DNA of 46,799 bases, taken from the NCBI GenBank assembly GCA_002699025.1, contig PABA01000228.1:12017-58815 (forward strand), given 5' to 3'. Positions within the stretch are counted from its first letter, which is position 1; each line of letters starts with the position of its first letter. Source of the DNA: Sandaracinus sp. Its GTDB lineage: Bacteria > Myxococcota_A > Polyangia > Polyangiales > Houyiibacteriaceae. Below the pieces are notes generated by a model. That model ran no database searches. It saw only the letters and a list, made by a program, of their open reading frames with translations, and was not told the DNA's origin. A program made the position numbers and the translations under genes. Of the stretch, positions 2,205-46,799 are shown piece by piece.

Positions 2205-5200
2205 GTGGGCAGCAGCGTCCAGGATGTCACCGCCCGTGCGAAGCAGCTGATCTCCGAGCGGAAGTACCGGGACGCCGTACGGGCGTGTCGCCGCGTGCTC
2301 CTCTCGAAGCCCGACGCCGTCCCCGTACGCCTCCTCCTCGCCCAGGCGCTCCTCGCGCTCGGGCGTCACGACGAGGTGCGCATCGAGATGCTCGCGCTCT
2401 CGAAGAAGGCGCCCGACGTCGGCGCGGCCTGGCGCCTCCTCGGGGAGGCCTACATCCGCGGGGGCCAGCCCGACGCGGCCGCCGAGGCCCTGCGCGAGGC
2501 GCTGAAGCTCGACCCGGCCGACGACGAGGCGCGGGATCTCCTCGAGGAGGTCGGCGAGGTCGACGCGCCGCCGAAGATGGAGACCATCGATCGCTGGTTC
2601 GGCGGGGAGCCCACCCACGCCGAGGCGCGCATCGACGAGATCCGCCCGCCGGACGAGCAGGCGCCGCCCGCGACCGGACCCTCCATCGACGCGCCCGCCT
2701 CCGTGGAGCTCGATCCCGAGTTCGAGGCCGAGGCGACCTCCGCCGAGCACGACGTCTCGGGGCTGCCGAGCGCGCCGCCGACCCCGAGCCCCGCCAAGCC
2801 GCGCAAGCGCACGCTCCTCGGCTTGCCCGCCGCGCCGCGCCCCGGCGCCGCGCGTCCGCCGGGCGCCGGGCTCCCCTCGGCGCCGCCGCCCCCCGGGATG
2901 CCGAAGCCCTCGGCGCCGCCGCCTCCCGGGGTGCCGAAGCCCTCGGCGCCGCCCCCTCCCGGGGTGCCGAAGCCCTCGGCGCCGCCGCCCCCCGGCGTCT
3001 CGAAGCCCTCCGCGCCTCCGCCGCGTCACCCGCGCCCGCCGAAGCGCACGGTGATGGGCTTCGGCGCCGCGCCCCCCGCTCCCGCGCCTGCGCCGACCCC
3101 GGCTTCGCCCGGCACCGAGGAGCTCGACCTCGACGAGGCGATGGTGGACGACGGCGGCACCGCCGAGCTCTCCCCCGACGACCTCCTCAGCGCGTCGGGC
3201 ACCTCCCCCCTCTCCACGGACGACCTCGCCCCGATCGACTCGGACCCCTACGCCGACCTCGGCGAGGGGCTGCCGCCGCTCGAGGGGGACGCGACCCAGG
3301 CCCGCGGCGCGGAGGTGGACGACCTCCCCGGCGAGCCCACGCAGGGGCGCCCCCCGGTGCACGACGGCTTCGGCGGCGGCGACGTCTTCGACGAGGGGCT
3401 GCCGCCGCTCGCGGGCGAGGCCACCATGGCCCGCGCGCCCGAGGATTTCGAGGACGAGGGCACGCGCCCGGCCAAGGGGCTCCGCGCCGCGCCGCCGGGT
3501 GCACCGCCCCCCGCGGCCCCGGCCGACTTCGAGGAGGAGACCACCGCGGCGCGGGGGCAGCGCTACGCCGAGGACGACCCCGAGGACTTCGAGACGACGA
3601 CCACGCGCCCCGCCGTCGACGCCGAGTTCCCCTCGGACGAGATCGACACCGGCCTGCCGCCCCTCGAGGGCGAGCCGACCATGGCCCGCCAGCCCCCCGA
3701 GGCGCCCTCCCTGCCCGGCCTCGGCGCCCCGAACGGCTTCCGCCCGAGCGCCACGCCCCAGCCCGCCGGCGCGCCCGCCCCGGCGGCGTCCGTCTCGCCC
3801 CCGGCCGGCGCCCTCCCCGCCGCGACGCCCGCCGACACGCGCGCCGCCCGGCCCACGGCGAAGACCGACGAGATGGACGCGACGCGCGGCGCGGGGCCCC
3901 CCGGGCGCACCGTGAAGCTCGGCCGCTTCCAGCTCTCGCTCCCGGTGCTCGTCGCCCTCGCCGGCGTGCCCGTCCTCCTGATCGTCGCCATCGTCGCGGG
4001 CGTCCACGCCTACCTCGGGGGCCAGGCCGAGGAGGCCATCGCCGCCGCCGCCGCGCAGGCTTCGCAGGACGGCCTCGAGAGCTCGCTCCGCGCCGCCCTC
4101 GAGCTGGACGCCGAGGAGCGCTCGGACGACGGGCCCGCCGTCGCCCGCCGCGCGCGCCTCTACGCCATGGCGGCCCACGACCACGGCTTCCAAGAGACCG
4201 AGCGCGCGCTCGCCCTGCTCGACTCGCTCGACACGGAGGGGCTCGGCTCGGCGGACGCGAAGGTCGCCCAGGTCTACCTCGCCCTCGAGGCCGGCCGCCC
4301 CCGCGACGCCGCGGACACGGCGCTGCTCCTCGACGGCACAGCCCTGGACGGAGAGGCCGGCTACGCGCGCGCTCTGGCCGCCTACGCGCGCGGCGAGCTC
4401 GAGCGGGCCGAGGTCGAGTCGGGCGCGCTCATGGAGATCCAGGGGCAGAGCCCGCGCTACGCCGCGCTCCGGGCGCGCATCCTCGCCGAGAGCGAGCAGA
4501 TCGCCGACGCCCTCGCGACGCTCCAGGCGCTCCCGAACCTGGCGCGCTCGCCGGTGGCGCGCCTCGCGAAGGCGCGGGTCCACGTCCTCGCCGAGCAGCC
4601 GCAGGAGGCCCTCGAGGAGACGGCGGCGCTCCTCGAGGAGCTCGGCTCGGCGCTCAGCGCCCGCCAGCGGGCCTTCGCGCTGCTCAGCCGGGCGGAGGCG
4701 TCGCTCCAGGCCGGGCAGCGCGAGCAGGCGGCGGCGCTCGCCGAGGAGGCGACGAACGGCCGGCCGACCGGAGACGAGTCCTTCGGGCTCCGCCTCGCCG
4801 AGCTCCAGCTCCGCCTCGGCGCGCTCGACGCCGCCCGGAACCTCCTCGAGGCGCTCCCGGAGGAGCGCGCCCGCCCCGCGCAGCATGCGCGCGTCGCCGC
4901 CGAGATCCACCTCGCGGCCGGCGACCTCGCCGCCGTCGAGGAGGTGCTCGAGCGCGCTGGCGAGACGCCCCAGACCGCCTACCTCCACGGCCGCCTCGCG
5001 GAGGCCCGCGGCGACGGCGAGGAGGCCGAGCGCCAGTACCGGACCGCGGCCGAGGAGCCCTCCGAGTACGTGCGGGCGACGGCGCGGCTGGGCGTGCTGG
5101 CGCTCCGCGAGGGCGAGGCGGAGCAGGCCATCGAGGTGCTCGAGCCGGCGCGCGCGCAGGCCCCCGGGCACGCCGAGATCGTGCCGGCGCTGATCGAGGC

Positions 5201-6300: not shown

Positions 6301-8652
6301 ATGAGCGAGGCGACGGTGGAGACGCGGCGCGTCTTCCTGCTCGGGCGGGAGAGCTGGCCGGGGCGCGACGGCTGGGACGTGCGCTGGTGGGGGCGGGCCG
6401 AGGACGGACCGGTGATGCTCCGGCTGCCGCCACAGGAGGCGGTCTTCTTCGTTCCGCGCGGCGTGGCGACGGAGGCGGGGCGCCGGCGCCCCGTGGAGCT
6501 CCGCACGCTGCGCGGCGAGCCCGTGGACGCCGTCTACTTCACGGACCGGCGCACCTGGAAGCGCGAGGCGCGCCGCCTCCGGGACGCCGGCACGCCCGCC
6601 TGGGAGGACGACGTGAAGCCGGCGGACCGCTACCTCATGGAGCGCTTCGTCACCGCCGGCGCGCGCGTCCGCGGCCGGGCCCACCGCGACCACGGCGTGC
6701 TGATCTTCGACGCCCCGCACGTGGAGCCCGCCGAGGTCGCGCCCGCGCTCCGGGTCGCCTCCTTCGACGTCGAGTCCGAGGGCCTCGAGGGCCCGCTCAT
6801 CAGCGTCGCCGTCGTCGAGGGCGAGAAGGAGCACGTCTTCGTGCGCGACGAGGGCGGCGCCGGCGCCCGCCGCCTCGCCCTCCGCCCGCCGCCGAAGGCC
6901 GAGGTGGCCCTCTATCCGGACGAGCGCAGCACCCTCGCCGCCTTCCTCGCCTGGGTGCGCCTCAGCGATCCGGACGTGCTCATCGGCTGGAACTGCATCG
7001 ACTTCGACCTCGCCTACCTCGAGGCCCGCTGCCGCGCCCACGGCCTCCCCTTCCGCCTCGGCCGCGCCGGCGGCGTGGCCACCGTCCTCGGCGGCGGCGA
7101 TCGGCAGGCGGCCTCGGTCGCGCGCGTGCCGGGGCGCGTCGTCCTCGACGGCATCGCCACGCTCCGCGCGGCCACCTGGAGCTTCGAGCGCTGGGGCCTC
7201 GAGCACGTCGGCCAGGCGCTCCTCGGCCGCGGCAAGGCCCTCGAGCCGACCGGCGACGCCCTCGCCGAGATCCTCCGCCTCTACCGCGAGGACCTCCCGG
7301 CGCTCGTCGAGTACAACCTCGAGGACTGCCGCCTCGTGCGCGACATCTTCGCCGAGGCCCAGCTCCTCGAGTTCGCCGTCGAGCGCCAGCGCCTCACGGG
7401 CCTGACCCTCGACCGCCGCGCCGGCGCCGTCGCCGCCTTCGACCACCTCTACCTGCCGCGCCTCCACCGCGCCGGGCGCGTGGCGGCGAGCGTCGGCACC
7501 AACCCCGAGCCCATCCGGAGCCCCGGCGGCTATGTCCTCGACTCGCAGCCCGGGCTCTACGAGAACGTGCTCGTCCTCGACTTCAAGAGCCTGTACCCGA
7601 GCCTGATCCGCACCTTCCGCGTGGACCCGCTCGGCCTCGCCGAGGGCCTCGAGGCGGGCGCGGGCGTGGAGGGCTTCGGGCAGGCGCTCTTCGATCGCGA
7701 GACGCACATCCTCCCGGCGCTCATCGAGGAGCTCTGGGCGGCGCGGGACGCGGCGAAGAAGAAGGGCGACGCGGCGCTCTCGCGGGCGATCAAGATCCTC
7801 ATGAACAGCTTCTACGGGGTGCTCGGGACCCCCGTGAGCCGCTTCTACGATCCGCGGCTGGCGAGCTCGATCACGCTGCGCGGGCACGAGGTGCTGCAGC
7901 GGAGCCGGGGGTGGATCGAGGCGAAGGGGTGGCGCGTCATCTACGGCGACACGGACTCGCTCTTCGTGCTCCTCGGGCCCGAGCACGGGGGCGCGGCGGC
8001 GAAGGCGATCGGGGCCGAGCTGGCGGCGGGGCTGAACGGCTGGTGGGCCGAGACCGTGCGCGCGGAGCATGGCGTGGAGAGCCGGCTCGAGGTGGAGTTC
8101 GAGACGCACTACGCGCGCTTTCTGATGCCGACCATGCGGGGCTCGACGACCGGCTCGAAGAAGCGCTACGCGGGGACCATCGAGGGGGCGGGGGCGGGGG
8201 TCGGTGAGGGGACGCGGCTGGTGTTCAAGGGGCTCGAGGCCGTGCGGACCGACTGGACGCCGCTCGCGCGCCGCTTCCAACGCGAGCTCTTCCGGCGGGT
8301 CTTCGCCGGGGAGCCCTACGCCGAGTGGGTGCGGCGGCTGAGCGGGCAGCTCTTCGAGGGCGAGCTCGACGGGGAGCTCGTCTACCGGAAGCGGCTCCGG
8401 CGCGACCTCGGGAGCTACGCCGAGCAGGGCGCGCCGCCGCACGTGGTGGCCGCGCGGCAGCTCGAGCGGCCGGGGCGCGAGGTCGAGTACGTGATCACGA
8501 CCCACGGCCCGCAGCCCATCGGCCGGGTGAGCGCGCCAATCGACTACGCCCACTACATGCAGAAGCAGCTCGCGCCGGCGGGCGACACCATCCTCCACTT
8601 CCTCGGCGAGAGCGTGGAGCACCTCGGCGGCCGCCAGCTCAGCCTCTTCTGA
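6301..8652 (+). CDS. polB: DNA polymerase II (family B)
   Basis: 783 aa, the same length as E. coli Pol II. The 3'-5' exonuclease motifs are present: Exo I SFDVESEG (about 153-160), Exo II IGWNCIDFDLAYLEAR (about 228) and Exo III YNLEDCRLVRD (about 338). The polymerase motifs follow: A DFKSLYPSLIR (about 427), B KILMNSFYGVLG (about 498), C YGDTDS (about 548) and KKRYAG (about 620). All catalytic Asp/Glu residues are in place, so an active proofreading repair or translesion polymerase is expected. GGGGGAGG ends 2 nt before the ATG, a tight Shine-Dalgarno. I see no LexA-like palindrome in the 60-bp gap after the TPR gene, so SOS control is not supported here. Confidence 0.95.
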   Translation: MSEATVETRRVFLLGRESWPGRDGWDVRWWGRAEDGPVMLRLPPQEAVFFVPRGVATEAGRRRPVELRTLRGEPVDAVYFTDRRTWKREARRLRDAGTPAWEDDVKPADRYLMERFVTAGARVRGRAHRDHGVLIFDAPHVEPAEVAPALRVASFDVESEGLEGPLISVAVVEGEKEHVFVRDEGGAGARRLALRPPPKAEVALYPDERSTLAAFLAWVRLSDPDVLIGWNCIDFDLAYLEARCRAHGLPFRLGRAGGVATVLGGGDRQAASVARVPGRVVLDGIATLRAATWSFERWGLEHVGQALLGRGKALEPTGDALAEILRLYREDLPALVEYNLEDCRLVRDIFAEAQLLEFAVERQRLTGLTLDRRAGAVAAFDHLYLPRLHRAGRVAASVGTNPEPIRSPGGYVLDSQPGLYENVLVLDFKSLYPSLIRTFRVDPLGLAEGLEAGAGVEGFGQALFDRETHILPALIEELWAARDAAKKKGDAALSRAIKILMNSFYGVLGTPVSRFYDPRLASSITLRGHEVLQRSRGWIEAKGWRVIYGDTDSLFVLLGPEHGGAAAKAIGAELAAGLNGWWAETVRAEHGVESRLEVEFETHYARFLMPTMRGSTTGSKKRYAGTIEGAGAGVGEGTRLVFKGLEAVRTDWTPLARRFQRELFRRVFAGEPYAEWVRRLSGQLFEGELDGELVYRKRLRRDLGSYAEQGAPPHVVAARQLERPGREVEYVITTHGPQPIGRVSAPIDYAHYMQKQLAPAGDTILHFLGESVEHLGGRQLSLF

Positions 8653-8741
8653 ACGGGCCCCGGCTCCCCCCGCGCGTGCGCCCGCGGCGGTCCGCGTCGC
8701 GGTCATCCCCTCGGATCGTCGAAGCCCCCCCGCGCGGGTAG

Positions 8742-8747
8742 TAGGCT
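8742..8747 (+). promoter_or_regulatory. -10 element TAGGCT, leaderless arrangement
   Basis: TAGGCT, then 6 nt, then ATG at 8754. The expected transcription start falls on the start codon. No Shine-Dalgarno precedes the ATG. Confidence 0.55.
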
Positions 8748-8753
8748 CTCGCC

Positions 8754-9834
8754 ATGGTCGCAGGTGACGAGCTCGATGACATCGCGTCCATCCGCGAGCG
8801 GCCGGGGATGTTCGTCGGCGACGTGAGGACCCGCTCGGCCACGCACCAGCTGGTCTGGGAGGTGCTCGCGAACGCCGTCGACGAGCACCTGGCGGGGCGC
8901 TGCACGCGCATCGAGCTGACGCTGCACGCGGATGGCTCCGTGTCGGTCCGCGACGACGGCGCCGGCATCTCCCTGGACGTCGACGAGAGTGGGACTCCTT
9001 GGGTCGAGCGGGTGCTGACCACGCGCCACTTCACGGCGACCGCGGACGGGCACGCGCCGCACGTGCACCTCCGGCCTTCCCACCACGTCGGGCTGTGCAT
9101 GGTCTCGGCGCTCTCGTCCTCGCTCTCGGCGGAGGTGCGGCGCGACGGCGAGGCGTGGCGCATCGAGCTGGAGCGCGGCCGCATCCGTTCCCCCCTCGCG
9201 AAGATCGGGGACGCCGACACGACGGGGACCACGCTGCGCTTCACGCCGGACGCGGAGGTCTTCGCGAGGCCGGACCGAGGTGGAAGCGATGGCCCGGCGC
9301 GTCCGCGAGCTCGCCGCCCTGCTCCCCGGGCTCGTCACGCGCTTCTCCTGCGAAGGCCACGAGTGGGGGCGCGACGCCGGCATGGAGCAGCTCCTCGAGA
9401 GCTCCGACCATGCCCGCGTCCACGAGCGGCCGGTCACGGGCGAGGCGCGCCAGGGCGACGCCCGGGCCCGCGTCGCCTTCGAGTGGCGCGACTGGCCCCC
9501 TGCGCCGCGGATCCTCGGCTACTGCAACCTCGACCCGGCCCACGCGGGGACGCACATCGAGGGCTTCCGCCGGGGCCTCGCCGAGGGCCTCGGTCGGCGC
9601 GATCCGGGTCGCGTCTTCGAGGCGCTCTCGGGGGGCCTGGCCGCCGTCGTCTCGGTGCTCGTCATCGACCCCGAGTACCAGGGCCCCACCCGCGAAAGGA
9701 TCGGCTCGGAGGAGGCGCGCGCCGTCGTCGCGGAGGCGACGGCGAAGGCACTGCGGCGCGCCCTCGCGTCGGACCCGGAGCTCGCGAGGCGCATCACCGC
9801 GCGGCTGGAGCGCGTCCCGGAGGCGAAGCCATGA
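8754..9834 (+). pseudogene. TOPRIM-less GyrB/ParE-like ATPase-transducer, frameshifted
   Basis: The first part (8754 to about 9270) is a GHKL ATPase domain of GyrB type: RPGMFVGD, WEVLANAVDEHLAG (catalytic-Glu helix with its Asn) and VRDDGAGI. The second part, in the +1 frame from about 9271 to 9834, is the GyrB transducer domain: TEVEAMARRVRELAALLPG, THIEGFRRGL and GLAAVVSVLVIDPEYQGPT. One surplus base around 9262-9280 splits them; removing it gives about 359 aa. Two key sites deviate: the GLHGVG ATP-lid motif reads PSHHVG, and the QTK transducer loop reads PTR. No TOPRIM or DNA-binding domain follows. Frame 0 stays open to 10424, but its middle section is Arg/Pro-rich nonsense. Either a recent inactivation or a sequence error; the function of a solitary domain is unknown. 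Confidence 0.7.
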
Positions 9835-33734: not shown

Positions 33735-33955
33735 GTGCGTCATCTCACGCGCATCGGCCCCGCGATTCCGTCCCGGGTACGGGTGTGCGTCATCTCACGC
33801 GAATCCGTCCCGGGTACGGGCGTGCGTCATCTCACGCGAATCCGTCCCGGGCACGGTTGTGCGTCATCTCACGCGATTCCGTCCCGGGTACGGTTGTGCG
33901 TCATCTCACGCGAATCCGTCCCGGGCACGGTTGTGCGTCATCTCACGCGCGGCCC
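33735..33955. repeat. 37-bp tandem repeat array between lysR and hpd
   Basis: The 17-mer GTGCGTCATCTCACGCG occurs at 33735, 33785, 33822, 33859, 33896 and 33933. The last five are spaced exactly 37 bp; the first is 50 bp away. Between them lies (A/T)TCCGTCCCGGG(T/C)ACGG. Each unit carries two short dyads, GCGT-N6-ACGC and CCGT-N7-ACGG. The 37-bp period breaks reading frames, so it is non-coding. Confidence 0.85.
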
Positions 33956-37116: not shown

Positions 37117-37232
37117 GTCCTACGGACGCGCCATCGGGAGTCCTGCGGACGCGCCATCGGGAGTGCTGCGGACGCGCCATCGGGAGTGCTGCGAACGCGC
37201 CATCGGGAGTCCTGCGGACGCGCCATCGGGGG
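37117..37232. repeat. 23-bp tandem repeat, five copies
   Basis: GGACGCGCCATCGGGAGT(C/G)CTGC repeats with CCATCGGG at 37131, 37154, 37177, 37200 and 37223, exactly 23 bp apart. It lies between two convergent stops (37094 and 37318). Confidence 0.85.
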
Positions 37233-37317
37233 TCGCCACGCCGAGGCGTTCGGGTCTCGATGGGCAGGCCGAGGTCGCGCCGCATCCGGTGCGGAGGCGC
37301 CGACGAGCGGTGGACCC

Positions 37318-38133
37318 TCAGCCGCTCGCGGCGAGCTGCCGGCAGGTCTCCTCGGTCGTCGCGTCGAGGGGGAAGTAGCTCTCGATCTGGAGCTCCTCGA
37401 GAGTGACGTTCATCGGGCCGTTGAAGACGGTGACGGTGGTGAGGAAGCCGGCCTCGAGCTCGCCGCGGCGGAGGCGGAGCGTGATGGTCGCGCCGGGGGG
37501 CACGGAGAAGTCCGGCTGGCGCCAGCTCTCCGGGACGCCCGGCTGCGCGAGGACCGCGTCGAGGAGGGCGGCGAGGCGCTCGTCGTGGCGCCGGTGGAGG
37601 ACCTCGCGGTGGAGCCGGCTGAGGAGGGCGTGGGCCTGGCGCTCCCAGTCGACGACGAAGGGCCGGAGCTGCGCCGGGTCGAAGACCGCCTTCAGCGCGT
37701 TCGGGGTCGGGCCGAGGGCGGTGGGGTCGGCGAGGAAGGCGCCGAGGAGCGCCTGGGCGCCGTGGTTCATGCGGAGCAGATCGTAGGCGCCGTTCATGAC
37801 GATCATCGGGTAGGGCTCGTGCACGGCGAACATGCGCTCGACGGCCTGGCCGATGGGCCCGGCGAGGGCCTCCTCGACCGTGGGCTGGCCGTAGGCGCTC
37901 TCGAAGCCGGCGGCGACGAGCATCTCGTTCTGCTCGCGGAGCGGGACCTGCATGGTGGTGGCGAGGCGGAGGACCATGTCCTCGCTCGGCTGGGCGCGGC
38001 CGGTCTCGAGGAAGCTGACGTGGCGGGAGGAGACGTCGGCGGCGAGGGCGAGGTCGAGCTGGCTCATGCCCCGGCGGCCGCGCCAGTGGCGGAGCAGGGC
38101 GGAGAAGAGGCCGGGGGAGCGGTCGTCTGCCAT
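37318..38133 (-). CDS. XRE family regulator with MmyB-like sensor domain
   Basis: 271 aa. N-terminal helix-turn-helix: LRHWRGRRGMSQLDLALAADVSSRHVSFLETGRAQPSEDMVLRLA. The remainder is an MmyB-type ligand domain (PAS-like; HEPYPMIVMNGAYDLLRMN, VFDPAQLRPFVVDWE, TVFNGPMNVTLEELQIESYFPLD), a group known in some actinobacteria to bind lipid-like ligands. It is divergent from the four-gene fatty-acid-modifying operon and is a natural candidate to regulate it (inference). A leaderless promoter, TACCCT 7 nt upstream of ATG, fixes the start. Confidence 0.9.
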   Translation of the reverse strand: MADDRSPGLFSALLRHWRGRRGMSQLDLALAADVSSRHVSFLETGRAQPSEDMVLRLATTMQVPLREQNEMLVAAGFESAYGQPTVEEALAGPIGQAVERMFAVHEPYPMIVMNGAYDLLRMNHGAQALLGAFLADPTALGPTPNALKAVFDPAQLRPFVVDWERQAHALLSRLHREVLHRRHDERLAALLDAVLAQPGVPESWRQPDFSVPPGATITLRLRRGELEAGFLTTVTVFNGPMNVTLEELQIESYFPLDATTEETCRQLAASG

Positions 38134-38146: not shown

Positions 38147-38268
38147 GGCGGTGGGCCGGCGGGCGTCCCTTCCCCGCGAGGTAAGCGAGGGCCCGGCTCG
38201 GAGCGAGCGCCCGACCCGTGCGAACCGGTGCCGACTCGTACGCGAATCCTCCCGCGTTGGCCACAAAC

Positions 38269-38354
38269 CTAGACACTGCTTGGCCTTTTCGGCTTCCCGA
38301 GCCGCGTTTGCCCCCGTGGCCTCCGTTGACAATCTAGACAATAGCTCCACAAAT
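38269..38354 (+). promoter_or_regulatory. promoter region of the fatty-acid modification operon with repeated half-sites
   Basis: TTGACA at 38326-38331 is a perfect -35; a weak -10, ACAAAT, lies 17 bp on (38349-38354), giving a very short leader. GACAAT repeats directly at 38328 and 38337 (9-bp step), and CTAGACA occurs at 38269 and 38334. These repeats overlap the -35/-10 spacer and are candidate regulator sites. Confidence 0.5.
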
Positions 38355-38364
38355 CTCGGAACCC

Positions 38365-39393
38365 ATGGACGTCCTGACCCGAGGTTGGATCCCCGACCCG
38401 CTGCTCCGCGCCGGCATCCGGCGCATCTGCGGCCAGCGCCTGCGCCGGCAAGCCCGCCTGGGCGGCGACCCGCTCGCGGAGCACGTCGCGCTCCTCCGCC
38501 GGAGCCCCATCGCGGTGGCGACGCACCAGGCGAACGACCAGCACTACGAGGTGCCCCCGGCCTTCTTCGAGGCGGTGCTGGGCCCCCACCTGAAGTACAG
38601 CTGCGGACACTGGGCTCCCGGAGCCCGCACGCTCGGCGACGCGGAGGCGGCGGCGCTCGCCCTGGTGGAAGAGCGCGCCCGCCTCGAGGACGGGCAACGC
38701 ATCCTCGAGCTCGGCTGCGGCTGGGGGTCTTTGACCCTCTGGATGGCCGAGCGCTTCCCCGCCTCCTCCGTGACCGCGGTGTCGAACTCGGCCCCCCAGC
38801 GGCGGCACATCGAGGCGCGCGCGGAGGCCCGCGGCCTCGACAACGTGACGGTGATCACCGCGGACGTGAACGACTTCGCGCCGCCCCTGGACGACGGACC
38901 CTACGACCGGGTCGTGTCGGTCGAGATGTTCGAGCACATGCGGAACTGGGAGCGCCTCCTCGGCCGTGTCGCCCGCTGGCTCGCCCCGGACGGGCTGCTC
39001 TTCCTGCACGTCTTCAGCCACCGCGAGCACGCCTACCTCTACGAGGACCGCGGGCCGAGCGACTGGATGGCGCGGGAGTTCTTCTCCGGCGGCCAGATGC
39101 CCGCCCACGACCTGATCCTCGCCTTCCAGGACGACCTCTCGCTGGTCGAGCGCTGGCGCCTGAACGGCGAGCACTACGCGAAGACCTCGGACGCCTGGCT
39201 CGCGAACCTGGACGCGCGGCGCGACGACGTGCTCGCCCTCTTCCGCGCGGACCACGGCGCGGAGGGCGCGCGGCGGCAGCTCCACCGCTGGCGCATCTTC
39301 TTCATGGCCTGCGCCGAGCTCTTCCGGTACCGGGCGGGCTCGGAATGGGGCGTCTCCCACTGGCTGCTCGCGCCGAAGGCGGCCACGGCGTGA
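38365..39393 (+). CDS. SAM-dependent methyltransferase, cyclopropane-fatty-acid-synthase-like
   Basis: 342 aa. The SAM motif ILELGCGWGSLTLWMAERFP (about 112-131), ADVNDFAP, and SVEMFEHMRNWERLL belong to the cyclopropane fatty acid synthase/mycolic acid methyltransferase group. HYEVPPAFFEAVLGPHLKYSCGHW is the usual active-site entry (HYD...F....LG...YS), here with Glu and Cys variants. It probably methylates the double bond of membrane fatty acyl chains. First gene of a four-gene set; its stop overlaps the next start as GTGA. Confidence 0.9.
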   Translation: MDVLTRGWIPDPLLRAGIRRICGQRLRRQARLGGDPLAEHVALLRRSPIAVATHQANDQHYEVPPAFFEAVLGPHLKYSCGHWAPGARTLGDAEAAALALVEERARLEDGQRILELGCGWGSLTLWMAERFPASSVTAVSNSAPQRRHIEARAEARGLDNVTVITADVNDFAPPLDDGPYDRVVSVEMFEHMRNWERLLGRVARWLAPDGLLFLHVFSHREHAYLYEDRGPSDWMAREFFSGGQMPAHDLILAFQDDLSLVERWRLNGEHYAKTSDAWLANLDARRDDVLALFRADHGAEGARRQLHRWRIFFMACAELFRYRAGSEWGVSHWLLAPKAATA

Positions 39394-40622
39394 AGATCGC
39401 GGTCGTCGGCAGCGGCATCAGCGGGATGGTCGCCGCGTGGCTCCTGAACGGGAAGCACGAGGTCACCCTCTTCGAGGCGCGCGATCGGGTCGGCGGGCAC
39501 ACGCACACCGTCGACGTCGAGCTGGGCGGGCGCACCTGGGGCGTCGACACGGGCTTCATCGTCTTCAACGAGCGCACCTACCCGAACCTGATCGAGATCT
39601 TCCGCCGCCTCGGCGTCCGGAGCCGCCCGACCAGCATGGGGTTCAGCGTCCGGCAGGACGCGACGGGGCTCGAGTACTCGAGCCAGGCCCTCCTCGCGCA
39701 GCGGCAGAACGTGCTCCGCCCGCGCTTTCTGCGCATGGTCCGCGACATCCTCCGCTTCAACCGCGAGGCGGAGCGCATCCTCGCGCGCACCGGAAGCCAC
39801 GAGACCCTCGGCGACATGCTCGGGTGCCACGGCTTCAGCCGCGACTTCGTGGACCTCTACATCGTGCCCATGGGCGCCGCGATCTGGTCCACGGACCCGG
39901 ACCGCATGCTCGGCTTCCCGGCGCGCTCCTTCGTGCGCTTCCTGGCCAACCACGGGCTCACGAGCCTCCGCGACCGGCCCACCTGGCGCGTCGTGGAGGG
40001 GGGCTCGCGGGCCTACGTCGAGAAGCTCCTCGCGCCCCTCGCGGGGAAGATCCGCACGGGCACGCCGGTCCGCGGGGTCGCGCGGGACGCGGCGGGCGTC
40101 ACGCTGAAGCTCGACGACGCGGAGGCGCGTTTCGACGCCGTCGTCCTGGCCAGCCACAGCGACCAGTCCCTCGCGATGCTCGAGGACGCCTCGGAGGCCG
40201 AGCGGGAGATCCTCGGGGCGATCCCCTACCAGGAGAACGCGACCCTCCTGCACACGGACACCTCCGTGCTGCCGCGGACGCGGCGCGCCTGGTCGAGCTG
40301 GAACTACCGCATCCCCCGGACCCGCCGGGACCGGGTCGCCGTGAGCTACGACATGAACATCCTGCAGGGCTTCGAGGACGCGCCCGAGGAGCTCATCGTC
40401 TCCCTCGGCGAGAGCGCGGTGGACCCGGCGAAGGTGCTCCGGCGGCTCACCTGGCACCACCCGCTCTTCACCCCCGAGGCGATGGCCGCGCAGAAGCGCA
40501 AGGGGGAGATCAGCGGCGTCCGGAACACCTGGTACGCCGGCGCCTACTGGCGCTACGGCTTCCACGAGGACGGCGTCATGAGCGCCCTCGACGTGACGAA
40601 GCAGCTCGGATGCCCGCTATGA
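39390..40622 (+). CDS. FAD-dependent amine oxidase-like oxidoreductase
   Basis: 410 aa. Dinucleotide-binding motif at the N-terminus (IAVVGSGISGMVAAWLL) then EARDRVGGHTHTVDVELGG, the flavin amine oxidase/NAD(P)-binding-Rossmann type. LYIVPMGAAIWSTDP, WRVVEGGSRAYVEKLL and NTWYAGAYWRYGFHEDG are typical of the family always found beside DUF1365 and CFA synthase. Likely acts on membrane fatty acyl chains, for example as a desaturase (inference). GTG start overlapping the upstream stop (GTGA); ATGA overlap with the next gene. Confidence 0.9.
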   Translation: MKIAVVGSGISGMVAAWLLNGKHEVTLFEARDRVGGHTHTVDVELGGRTWGVDTGFIVFNERTYPNLIEIFRRLGVRSRPTSMGFSVRQDATGLEYSSQALLAQRQNVLRPRFLRMVRDILRFNREAERILARTGSHETLGDMLGCHGFSRDFVDLYIVPMGAAIWSTDPDRMLGFPARSFVRFLANHGLTSLRDRPTWRVVEGGSRAYVEKLLAPLAGKIRTGTPVRGVARDAAGVTLKLDDAEARFDAVVLASHSDQSLAMLEDASEAEREILGAIPYQENATLLHTDTSVLPRTRRAWSSWNYRIPRTRRDRVAVSYDMNILQGFEDAPEELIVSLGESAVDPAKVLRRLTWHHPLFTPEAMAAQKRKGEISGVRNTWYAGAYWRYGFHEDGVMSALDVTKQLGCPL

Positions 40623-41410
40623 GCGCGGCGGCGCCCGAGCCCGTCGAGCTCTACGAGGGCACGGTCCGGCACCGGCGCCGCGCCCCGACGCGCCACGCCT
40701 TCACCTACCGGGTCGCCTTCCTGCACCTCGACCTCGACCGGCTGGAGCGGCTCGGCGCGTGGCCGCTCTTCGGGACCGACGCCCCGGCCCTCGTACGCTT
40801 CCGCCGGGAGGATCACCTCGGCGACCCGGAGCGGCCCCTCGCGGAGAGCATCCGGGAGCTCGTCGGAGAGCGCCGCGGCGTGCGCCCCGAGGGGCCGGTC
40901 ACGCTCCTGACGCAGCCCCGGGCCTTCGGCCTGAGCTTCAACCCGGTGAGCTTCTTCTACTGCTGGGACGCCGCGCGGACGCGGCCGACGCACCTCGTCG
41001 CCGAGGTGGACAACACGCCCTGGGGGGAGCGGCACGTCTACGTCGCGGACGTCGCCCTCGCCGCGCGCGGCGCGGGCGCGCCCATGGCCTTCCGGGTCCC
41101 GAAGCGCTTCCACGTCTCGCCCTTCCACGGCATGGAGCAGACCTACGAGTGGCGCTTCACGGTGCCCGGACGGAGCCTCGTCGCCCACATGGAGAACTGG
41201 GAGGACGGCGAGCTGCTCACGGACGCCACGCTCGTGCTCCGCCGCCAGCGCTGGGGCGCCGCCGCCAAGGCGCGGCTGCTGCTCCTCTACCCCTTCGGCC
41301 CGGCGCGCGTCCTCGCCGGGATCTACCGCGAAGCCTTTCGCCTCTGGCGAAAGGGCACGCCCTATCACCCTCACCCCGCGAAGCTCCGCGAGCGGACCGA
41401 GCGACCATGA
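40619..41410 (+). CDS. DUF1365 family protein
   Basis: 263 aa. Family hallmarks: LYEGTVRHRRRAPTRHAFTYRV at the start, LLTQPRAFGLSFNPVSFFYCWD in the middle, HLVAEVDNTPWGERHVYV, and KRFHVSPFHGMEQTYEWRF. A hydrophobic stretch near the end (ARLLLLYPFGPARVLAGIYR) may touch the membrane. Biochemical function not established; its fixed partners are the flavin enzyme and CFA synthase seen here. ATGA overlaps at both ends. Confidence 0.92.
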   Translation: MSAAAPEPVELYEGTVRHRRRAPTRHAFTYRVAFLHLDLDRLERLGAWPLFGTDAPALVRFRREDHLGDPERPLAESIRELVGERRGVRPEGPVTLLTQPRAFGLSFNPVSFFYCWDAARTRPTHLVAEVDNTPWGERHVYVADVALAARGAGAPMAFRVPKRFHVSPFHGMEQTYEWRFTVPGRSLVAHMENWEDGELLTDATLVLRRQRWGAAAKARLLLLYPFGPARVLAGIYREAFRLWRKGTPYHPHPAKLRERTERP

Positions 41411-42663
41411 CGACGAGCCTCCTCCCCTTCCCCCGCACCGCCGGCCCCTCCCTCCCCACCCGCCTCGCGCGCCGGCTGGTCTTCGAGCGCCTCGCGGGCC
41501 TGAGCCGGAGCCGCCTCGTGATCGAGGAGCCCACCGGCACGCGCACCTTCGGCCCGCCCGAGGCGCCGACCTTCGTCGTGCGCGTACACGACCCGGAGGC
41601 CTGGCTGCGCATGGCCCTCGGGGGCAGCCTGGGGGCCGGCGAGGCCTACGTGGAGGGGCTCTGGGACGCGGACGATCTGGTCGGGGTGGTCTGCGCGCTC
41701 GCCGGGGAGGTCGCGAAGATGAGCGCCCTCGACGGCGGCCGGCTCACCGCCCTGCGCAAGCCCCTCGACGCGGTGCTGCACGGCCTGAGGCGAAACAGCC
41801 GGGAGGGCAGCCGCAAGAACATCGCCCGCCACTACGACCTCGGGAACGACTTCTTCCGCCTCTGGCTCGACGAGGCGACGATGATGTACTCGGCGGCGCG
41901 CTTCGAGCGGGAGGGGATGACCCTCGAGGAGGCGCAGCTCAGCCGGCTCGAGCGGATCGGCCGCCAGCTCGAGCTCGGCCCGGAGGACCACCTCCTCGAG
42001 ATCGGCACCGGCTGGGGTGGCCTGGCGGTGCATGCGGCGCGCACGACCGGCTGCCGCGTCACGACGGCGACCATCTCGAAGGAGCAGCACGCGCTGGCCG
42101 TGGAGCGGGTCCGCGCGGCCGGCCTCGAGGACCGCGTCGAGGTGCTCCTCCGGGACTACCGGGACCTGGAGGGCCGCTACGACAAGGTGGTCAGCGTCGA
42201 GATGATCGAGGCGGTCGGCGCGGAGTTCCTCGAGACCTACTTCGCGAAGGTCGGCGAGCTCGTGCGGCCGGAGGGCCTGGTGCTGATCCAGGCGATCACC
42301 ATCCCGGACGCCGGCTACGAGCGCGCCGTGAAGAACGTCGACTTCGTGAAGCGCTACATCTTCCCCGGCGGCCAGTGCCCGAGCCTCGCCGCCATGAGCG
42401 GCGCGTGGAGCCGGACCACGGACCTCCGGCTGCTGCACCTCGAGGACTTCGGCGAGGGCTACGCCGAGACCCTGCGCTGCTGGCGCGAGCGCTTCGAGGC
42501 GCGGCTCCCGGAGGTGCGCGCCTTCGGCTACGACGAGGCCTTCATCCGCCTCTGGCGCTTCTACCTCGCCTACTGCGAGGGCGGCTTCCGGGAGCGCCAC
42601 TGCGGCGTCGTCCAGATGCTGCTCGCCGGCCCCGACGCCCGCGTCCGCCCGCGCCCCGCCTGA
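41407..42663 (+). CDS. cfa: cyclopropane-fatty-acyl-phospholipid synthase
   Basis: 418 aa, full family length. N-terminal lipid-binding domain (residues 1-130; MALGGSLGAGEAYVEGLWD) and C-terminal SAM methyltransferase: NIARHYDLGNDFFRLWLDEATMMYSAARF, LLEIGTGWGGLAVHAA, SKEQHALA, SVEMIEAVG, and KRYIFPGGQCPS. It would add a methylene or methyl group from SAM to unsaturated acyl chains of phospholipids. Last gene of the operon, followed by a hairpin at 42691. Two CFA-type methyltransferases in one operon suggest consecutive or alternative modifications. Confidence 0.93.
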   Translation: MTTSLLPFPRTAGPSLPTRLARRLVFERLAGLSRSRLVIEEPTGTRTFGPPEAPTFVVRVHDPEAWLRMALGGSLGAGEAYVEGLWDADDLVGVVCALAGEVAKMSALDGGRLTALRKPLDAVLHGLRRNSREGSRKNIARHYDLGNDFFRLWLDEATMMYSAARFEREGMTLEEAQLSRLERIGRQLELGPEDHLLEIGTGWGGLAVHAARTTGCRVTTATISKEQHALAVERVRAAGLEDRVEVLLRDYRDLEGRYDKVVSVEMIEAVGAEFLETYFAKVGELVRPEGLVLIQAITIPDAGYERAVKNVDFVKRYIFPGGQCPSLAAMSGAWSRTTDLRLLHLEDFGEGYAETLRCWRERFEARLPEVRAFGYDEAFIRLWRFYLAYCEGGFRERHCGVVQMLLAGPDARVRPRPA

Positions 42664-46710: not shown

Positions 46711-46799
46711 CCACGCGTCCAGCGGACGCCGCCACGCGTCCAGCGGACGCCGCCACGCGTCCAGCGGACGCCGCCACGCGTCCAGCGGACGCCGCCACG
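46711..46799. repeat. 21-bp tandem repeat running off the window
   Basis: CCACGCGTCCAGCGGACGCCG with starts at 46711, 46732, 46753, 46774 and 46795 (cut by the window end). Exactly 21 bp, near-identical copies; the full length is unknown. Confidence 0.85.

Follow-up and report, generated by a model that had tools for sequence, protein, structure and literature searches.

The gene cluster and its genome

The window, by which we mean the whole stretch of DNA that was analysed (46 799 nucleotides), carries four overlapping genes on the forward strand, preceded by candidate control elements and a divergent regulator gene.

37318..38133, − strand: divergent XRE/MmyB-like regulator (HTH + MLTR_LBD), a neighbour that is not clearly part of the system
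38267..38275, + strand: further ACCTAGACA element (AYCTAGACA match), possible auxiliary half-site
38326..38331, + strand: TTGACA, probable −35 box, 39 bp before the gene 1 start; TTGAC[AG] in the relatives G032 and G023
38334..38355, + strand: two in-phase 11-bp repeats (TAGACA-N5-TCCACA), candidate CarH-type operator; TnnACA cores at 38335-38340 and 38346-38351
38365..39393, + strand: gene 1, FufM-like SAM methyltransferase (coclaurine-NMT-like branch), predicted furan fatty acid methylase, 342 aa
39390..40622, + strand: gene 2, UfaD homologue (FAD amine-oxidase fold fatty acyl desaturase), 410 aa, GTG start
40619..41410, + strand: gene 3, UfaO homologue (DUF1365 furan-forming oxygenase), 263 aa
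41407..42663, + strand: gene 4, UfaM homologue (CFA-family fatty acyl C-methyltransferase), 418 aa

Each junction is a 4-bp overlap, as a preliminary description of this DNA had stated. The overlaps are GTGA at 39390-39393 (genes 1/2), ATGA at 40619-40622 (genes 2/3), and ATGA at 41407-41410 (genes 3/4), and we infer from these overlaps that the four proteins are made jointly. The Pfam scores (gene 1, CMAS, 156 bits; gene 2, Amino_oxidase, 94; gene 3, DUF1365, 240; gene 4, CMAS, 277) are all far above the cut-off, and the gene order 1-2-3-4 or 2-3-4 is found again in related genomes, so all four are real genes. The 4-bp overlap of genes 1 and 2 is also present in G032, where UfaD starts at 3503, just inside the end of the preceding ORF (2490-3506).

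The genome from which the window comes (G000; 9.24 Mb, 238 contigs, 95.9% complete) has 36 matches to the MYXO-CTERM domain, a marker of Myxococcota, compared with 0 in 14 control genomes, which places it in this phylum. The window also contains three repeat arrays: an intergenic array of five 23-bp repeats (GTCCTGCGGACGCGCCATCGGGA) at 37117-37234, a 37-bp repeat array at 33761-33949, and an array of exact 21-bp repeats at the end of the window (46711-46799).

Genes 2–4 and the furan fatty acid pathway

UfaM, UfaD, and UfaO have been shown in Rhodobacter sphaeroides and Rhodopseudomonas palustris to produce the monomethyl furan fatty acid 9M5-FuFA (PMC7380195). UfaM methylates cis-vaccenoyl chains (Lemke et al. 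2020; PMC7380195), UfaD turns the product into a conjugated diene, UfaO, a DUF1365 protein, closes the furan using O2-derived oxygen, and 9D5-FuFA arises when FufM (RPA0924) places another methyl on the furan (PMC7380195). The preliminary description had called the product of the operon unknown in this lineage. However, the trio of flavin enzyme, DUF1365 protein, and CFA-family protein has the known functions UfaD, UfaO, and UfaM (PMC7380195), and therefore the product can be predicted. The more general suggestion that the operon modifies acyl chains is supported. Three of its genes are homologous to UfaD, UfaO, and UfaM, with homologues of all three enzymes of the pathway in one locus.

R. 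palustris JSC-3b, which was reached by seeking relatives of gene 1 in named genomes, has one cluster (L162) with ufaD, ufaO, and ufaM arranged as published and, not linked to it, a DUF1295-FufM pair (L163). The window and JSC-3b proteins are 44.3% (UfaD), 36.6% (UfaO), 39.4% (UfaM), and 47.3% (FufM candidate) identical. Within JSC-3b, the FufM candidate is 25.4% identical to UfaM, while the published value for RPA0924 and R. sphaeroides UfaM is 26% (PMC7380195). From this value, the homology, and the neighbourhood, rather than from an accession, the JSC-3b protein is probably the counterpart of RPA0924. The window is thus like R. palustris RPA2571-2569 (ufaD-ufaO-ufaM) and RPA0924 (fufM) in all four enzymes and in the D-O-M order, although R. 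palustris has its fufM apart from the cluster (next to a DUF1295 gene in JSC-3b), whereas the fufM-type gene heads the operon in the window. With R. sphaeroides, which has ufaD-ufaO (RSP1091-1090) and an unlinked ufaM (RSP2144), it shares the enzymes of 9M5-FuFA synthesis. FufM is not reported as required for the monomethyl product there, whereas the window has a FufM-type gene.

The residues C139, H266, E239, and Y317 have active-site roles in CFA synthase. In the alignment of gene 4 with E. coli CFA synthase (6bqc), A is found at C139 and Q at H266, while E239 and Y317 are retained; R. palustris UfaM has S and Q, respectively, at the first two positions. With C139 and H266 replaced and E239 and Y317 kept, gene 4 bears the active-site signature of UfaM and not that of Cfa. 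Furthermore, the NCBIfam cut-off for CFA synthase is 400 bits, and gene 4 reaches 259 and gene 1 only 155.

The N-terminus of gene 2 contains the Rossmann sequence GSGISG. The residues that are invariant among 41 UfaO homologues, including R. palustris UfaO, are all present in gene 3. In search of a clue to the cofactor, a model of UfaO was made with AlphaFold2 on an alignment of 41 sequences, three rows from plasmid records being excluded. The model (pLDDT 89.6) has a beta-rich fold with C-terminal helices. It was compared with PDB structures for a calycin-like barrel; the best Z was 7.8 (nitrobindin, 2a13), and all Foldseek E values were at least 0.0095, so that the match, a middling beta-barrel, is too weak to use. 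The weak fold matches, all below a trustworthy level, comprise nitrobindin, the spirocyclase OssO, and FABP-like/fatty-acid-binding proteins. The DUF1365 family may include other activities.

Gene 1

What is the function of gene 1? The preliminary description had counted two CFA-type methyltransferases in the operon. This is correct for gene 4, which is of the CFA family, but not for gene 1, whose best solved relatives are the plant coclaurine (6gkv), pavine, and protoberberine N-methyltransferases, with E down to 1.2e-66 (6gkv), whereas E. coli CFA synthase gives 1.3e-29. Gene 1 retains the E-H pair found in coclaurine NMT. A maximum-likelihood tree puts gene 1 in one clade with its operon counterparts from G032 and G023 (96/99), and the FufM/CNMT group, which includes gene 1 and the R. 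palustris FufM candidate, splits from UfaM at 100/100. Judged by these comparisons, gene 1 is a methylase of the FufM/coclaurine-NMT type and no second CFA synthase. Arabidopsis AT4G33110 presumably belongs to the same plant family as the N-methyltransferase relatives of gene 1. It is 38% identical to FufM (PMC10940516).

A gene-1-like protein is also encoded in the CarH/photolyase/carotenoid island of relatives without detectable UfaO, for example G001, G011, and G017 (100% complete), and these proteins fall outside the small clade of gene 1 in the tree. Since such relatives keep a gene-1-like gene in a light island, the subfamily of gene 1 may have a substrate other than furans. The several UfaO-less relatives concerned (loci L043-L053) would have lost the furan genes, unless their branch acts on another substrate.

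Linkage of the genes in other genomes

Of the 80 FufM-like loci that we collected, all that carry a group name are alphaproteobacterial, and 57 are complete on both flanks. UfaD and UfaO are both present in 42 of the 57, UfaM as well in 27, DUF1295 in 50, and ChrR in 28. Thus, the trio is a recurring one, as the preliminary description had said, and its occurrence near ECF sigma/ChrR genes in alphaproteobacteria agrees with the ChrR count. Plasmids of Burkholderia, Acinetobacter, and Cupriavidus (L036, L038, L040) carry FufM-like, UfaD, UfaO, and UfaM homologues together; these clusters have extra DUF1295, lipocalin, chalcone-isomerase-like, or sigma/anti-sigma genes, whereas the four genes of the window form a single operon. 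The DUF1295 (steroid-reductase-like membrane) gene accompanies FufM in L036, L038, L040, L052, and L163, and in 68 of the 80 loci. Unlike in most FufM loci, no DUF1295 gene adjoins gene 1 in the window.

Among related genomes, UfaO was found in only 7 of 96. G083 and G092 have UfaD-UfaO-UfaM with FufM, G093 and G040 have D-O-M without FufM nearby, and in G016 D-O-M lies downstream of a photolyase gene, with the FufM-like gene elsewhere. In five loci of genus g2 (L043, L044, L046, L051, L053), a FufM-like methyltransferase gene lies in or near a CarH/photolyase/carotenoid island, with UfaO undetected genome-wide. In L053, a single ORF (7684-9240) begins as a CarH-type protein, with its DNA-binding N-terminus, and ends as the C-terminal portion of a FufM-like one, by fusion or as an assembly artefact of that genome. 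On plasmid pRL12 of Rhizobium johnstonii, a ufaM fragment of about 63 residues (L039:3793-3981) lies near intact-looking ufaD and fufM-like genes, which suggests decay of the pathway there.

The promoter and its repeats

Myxobacterial CarH binds tandem 11-bp nnnnTnnACAn repeats, and the −35 box is often inside one of them (PMC9304148). By sequence match, at least two such tandem repeats lie near the −35 box of the operon. The CarH-regulated carotenoid promoters of myxobacteria (PMC9304148) are alike in having 11-bp TnnACA direct repeats near the −35 box, but they serve carotenoid genes, whereas the candidate operator in the window precedes a fatty acid operon. Only one such repeat pair is present in the window, that at the operon promoter (shuffle mean 0.05), and AYCTAGACA is present just twice, both in this promoter (shuffle mean 0.05). 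The motif had been noticed on visual inspection of the window promoter before it was compared with the published repeat, and for this reason the tests in relatives weigh more than the window test. The TTGACRATCTAGACAA sequence is kept in G032, and G023 has a similar element. TTGAC[AG]ATCTAGACAA is common to the window and G032 (0/300 shuffles), and TTGACGA[TC]CTAGAC is common to G032 and G023 (0/300 shuffles); the direct comparison of the window and G023 promoters is not significant on its own. Five of eight related loci (G000, G032, G023, G092, G093) have in-phase repeats upstream of the ufa genes (G093 has four repeats), compared with about 2% of random 400-bp windows. In 237 kb of relatives' loci, there are 26 repeat pairs, with a spacing peak at 11 bp, versus 1.0 in shuffles, and this enrichment describes those loci, not random genome, because they were picked for FufM-like or ufa genes and several proved to be light islands. 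The alphaproteobacterial loci, 1.23 Mb in total, have 1 pair, compared with 4 in the reversed control.

The same repeats precede carH itself in L051 and L053. A CarH homologue in which the MerR domain and both B12 domains are present is encoded in the genome of the window (C156); its gene is not adjacent to the operon, and its surroundings are without such a repeat. Other TWGACR-N5-TNNACA sites in the genome lie before a WS/DGAT-like gene (C170) or in or near unrelated ORFs, none of them at obvious light genes. A second exact match to TTGACA-N3-TnnACA-N5-TnnACA (C11) falls close to the end of a contig and is followed by no obvious gene; by itself, therefore, the three-part pattern does not single out light genes. 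The repeats on C170 (L184:4074; G000:C170:45073) are about 150 bp before the wax-ester-synthase/DGAT-like gene, which is possibly a second lipid gene under the same control. A regulon based on a 19-base pattern around the second promoter element was dropped, with 10 matches compared with 33 in the control. A scan for sigma-70 promoters and terminators found nothing, the former because the −10 box is poor.

The preliminary description had linked the trio to light or singlet-oxygen responses in other proteobacteria, with the RpoE/ChrR and LitR regulons as examples. A neighbourhood with ECF sigma/ChrR is indeed seen in alphaproteobacteria, and the R. sphaeroides genes belong to the RpoE/ChrR regulon (singlet-oxygen control), whereas the window has candidate CarH-type operator repeats, and no ECF sigma/ChrR pair was recognised among the genes neighbouring the operon. 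Given the repeats at the promoter, their recurrence in five of the eight loci, and the CarH homologue in the genome, light control of the operon is plausible, by way of CarH rather than the RpoE/ChrR pair that accompanies these genes in alphaproteobacteria.

Proposed pathway and alternatives

We consider it probable that the operon encodes the full pathway to monomethyl and then dimethyl furan acyl chains, with repression by CarH in the dark. The substrate would be a cis-monounsaturated acyl chain of a membrane phospholipid. UfaM (gene 4) would methylate the double bond with SAM and shift it, UfaD (gene 2), with FAD and O2, would introduce a second, conjugated double bond, and UfaO (gene 3) would insert an O2-derived oxygen, closing the furan ring. 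Gene 1, of the FufM type, would then add the second ring methyl. The 4-bp overlaps would couple translation of the four genes. In the dark, the repeats behind the −35 box are probably the site at which a CarH-type B12 photoreceptor keeps the promoter repressed; illumination would then raise the output of furan lipid, which is thought to scavenge oxidants. The chemical steps, each of which has been shown in other bacteria (PMC7380195), are proposed here from homology and gene order, and the regulation by CarH from the DNA motifs only.

Since genes 2–4 match UfaD, UfaO, and UfaM, and gene 1 groups with FufM, mono- and dimethyl furan fatty acyl chains are the most likely product in the myxobacterium. 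Might gene 1 instead methylate another lipid, a carotenoid-related compound, or an amine, leaving genes 2–4 to make the monomethyl furan only? The gene-1-like proteins in the light islands of UfaO-less relatives, and the amine N-methyltransferases within the fold family, would fit this, but the gene 1/ufaD overlap, here and in G032, and the linkage of FufM-like genes to UfaD and UfaO in 42 of 57 loci make it distinctly unlikely. It is very unlikely that the pathway ends before the furan, with methyl-branched unsaturated or conjugated fatty acids as its products; UfaO is the most diverged of the four proteins (36.6%), and its catalytic residues and cofactor are not known (PMC7380195), but gene 3 is intact, has the invariant residues, and has been retained in the operon. 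We regard it as extremely unlikely that gene 4 is an ordinary cyclopropane synthase with cyclopropane or 10-methyl fatty acids as the product. Despite its CMAS domain and the CFA synthases that are its nearest solved structures, gene 4 is without the C and H of the CFA active site, scores well below the NCBIfam cut-off, and is grouped with UfaD and UfaO.

As for the regulation, the XRE/MmyB-like regulator, rather than CarH, could control the operon through the CTAGACA elements, as it is adjacent and divergently oriented. This seems unlikely, since no such regulator turned up next to the homologous genes of the examined relatives, including G032 and G023, which retain the promoter element, and the 11-bp spacing of the element fits CarH. 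Whether CarH directly controls furan fatty acid synthesis in Myxococcota, so that this synthesis joins carotenoids and photolyase in a light-protection regulon while alphaproteobacteria use RpoE/ChrR, we judge to be evenly balanced.

We found no report of furan fatty acids in myxobacteria in the literature. The chemistry of the proposed full pathway is known; what is new is the lineage, the arrangement with a fufM-type gene heading ufaD-ufaO-ufaM, and the probable regulation. A defined lipid is thereby predicted for myxobacteria. The analysis also takes the pathway of 2020 into a further phylum, where fufM is part of the ufa operon, and points to a possible B12/light switch for it. cis-11-Hexadecenoate is common in myxobacteria, and if the host uses it, the products would be C3-tailed furans (9M3/9D3), not 9M5/9D5.
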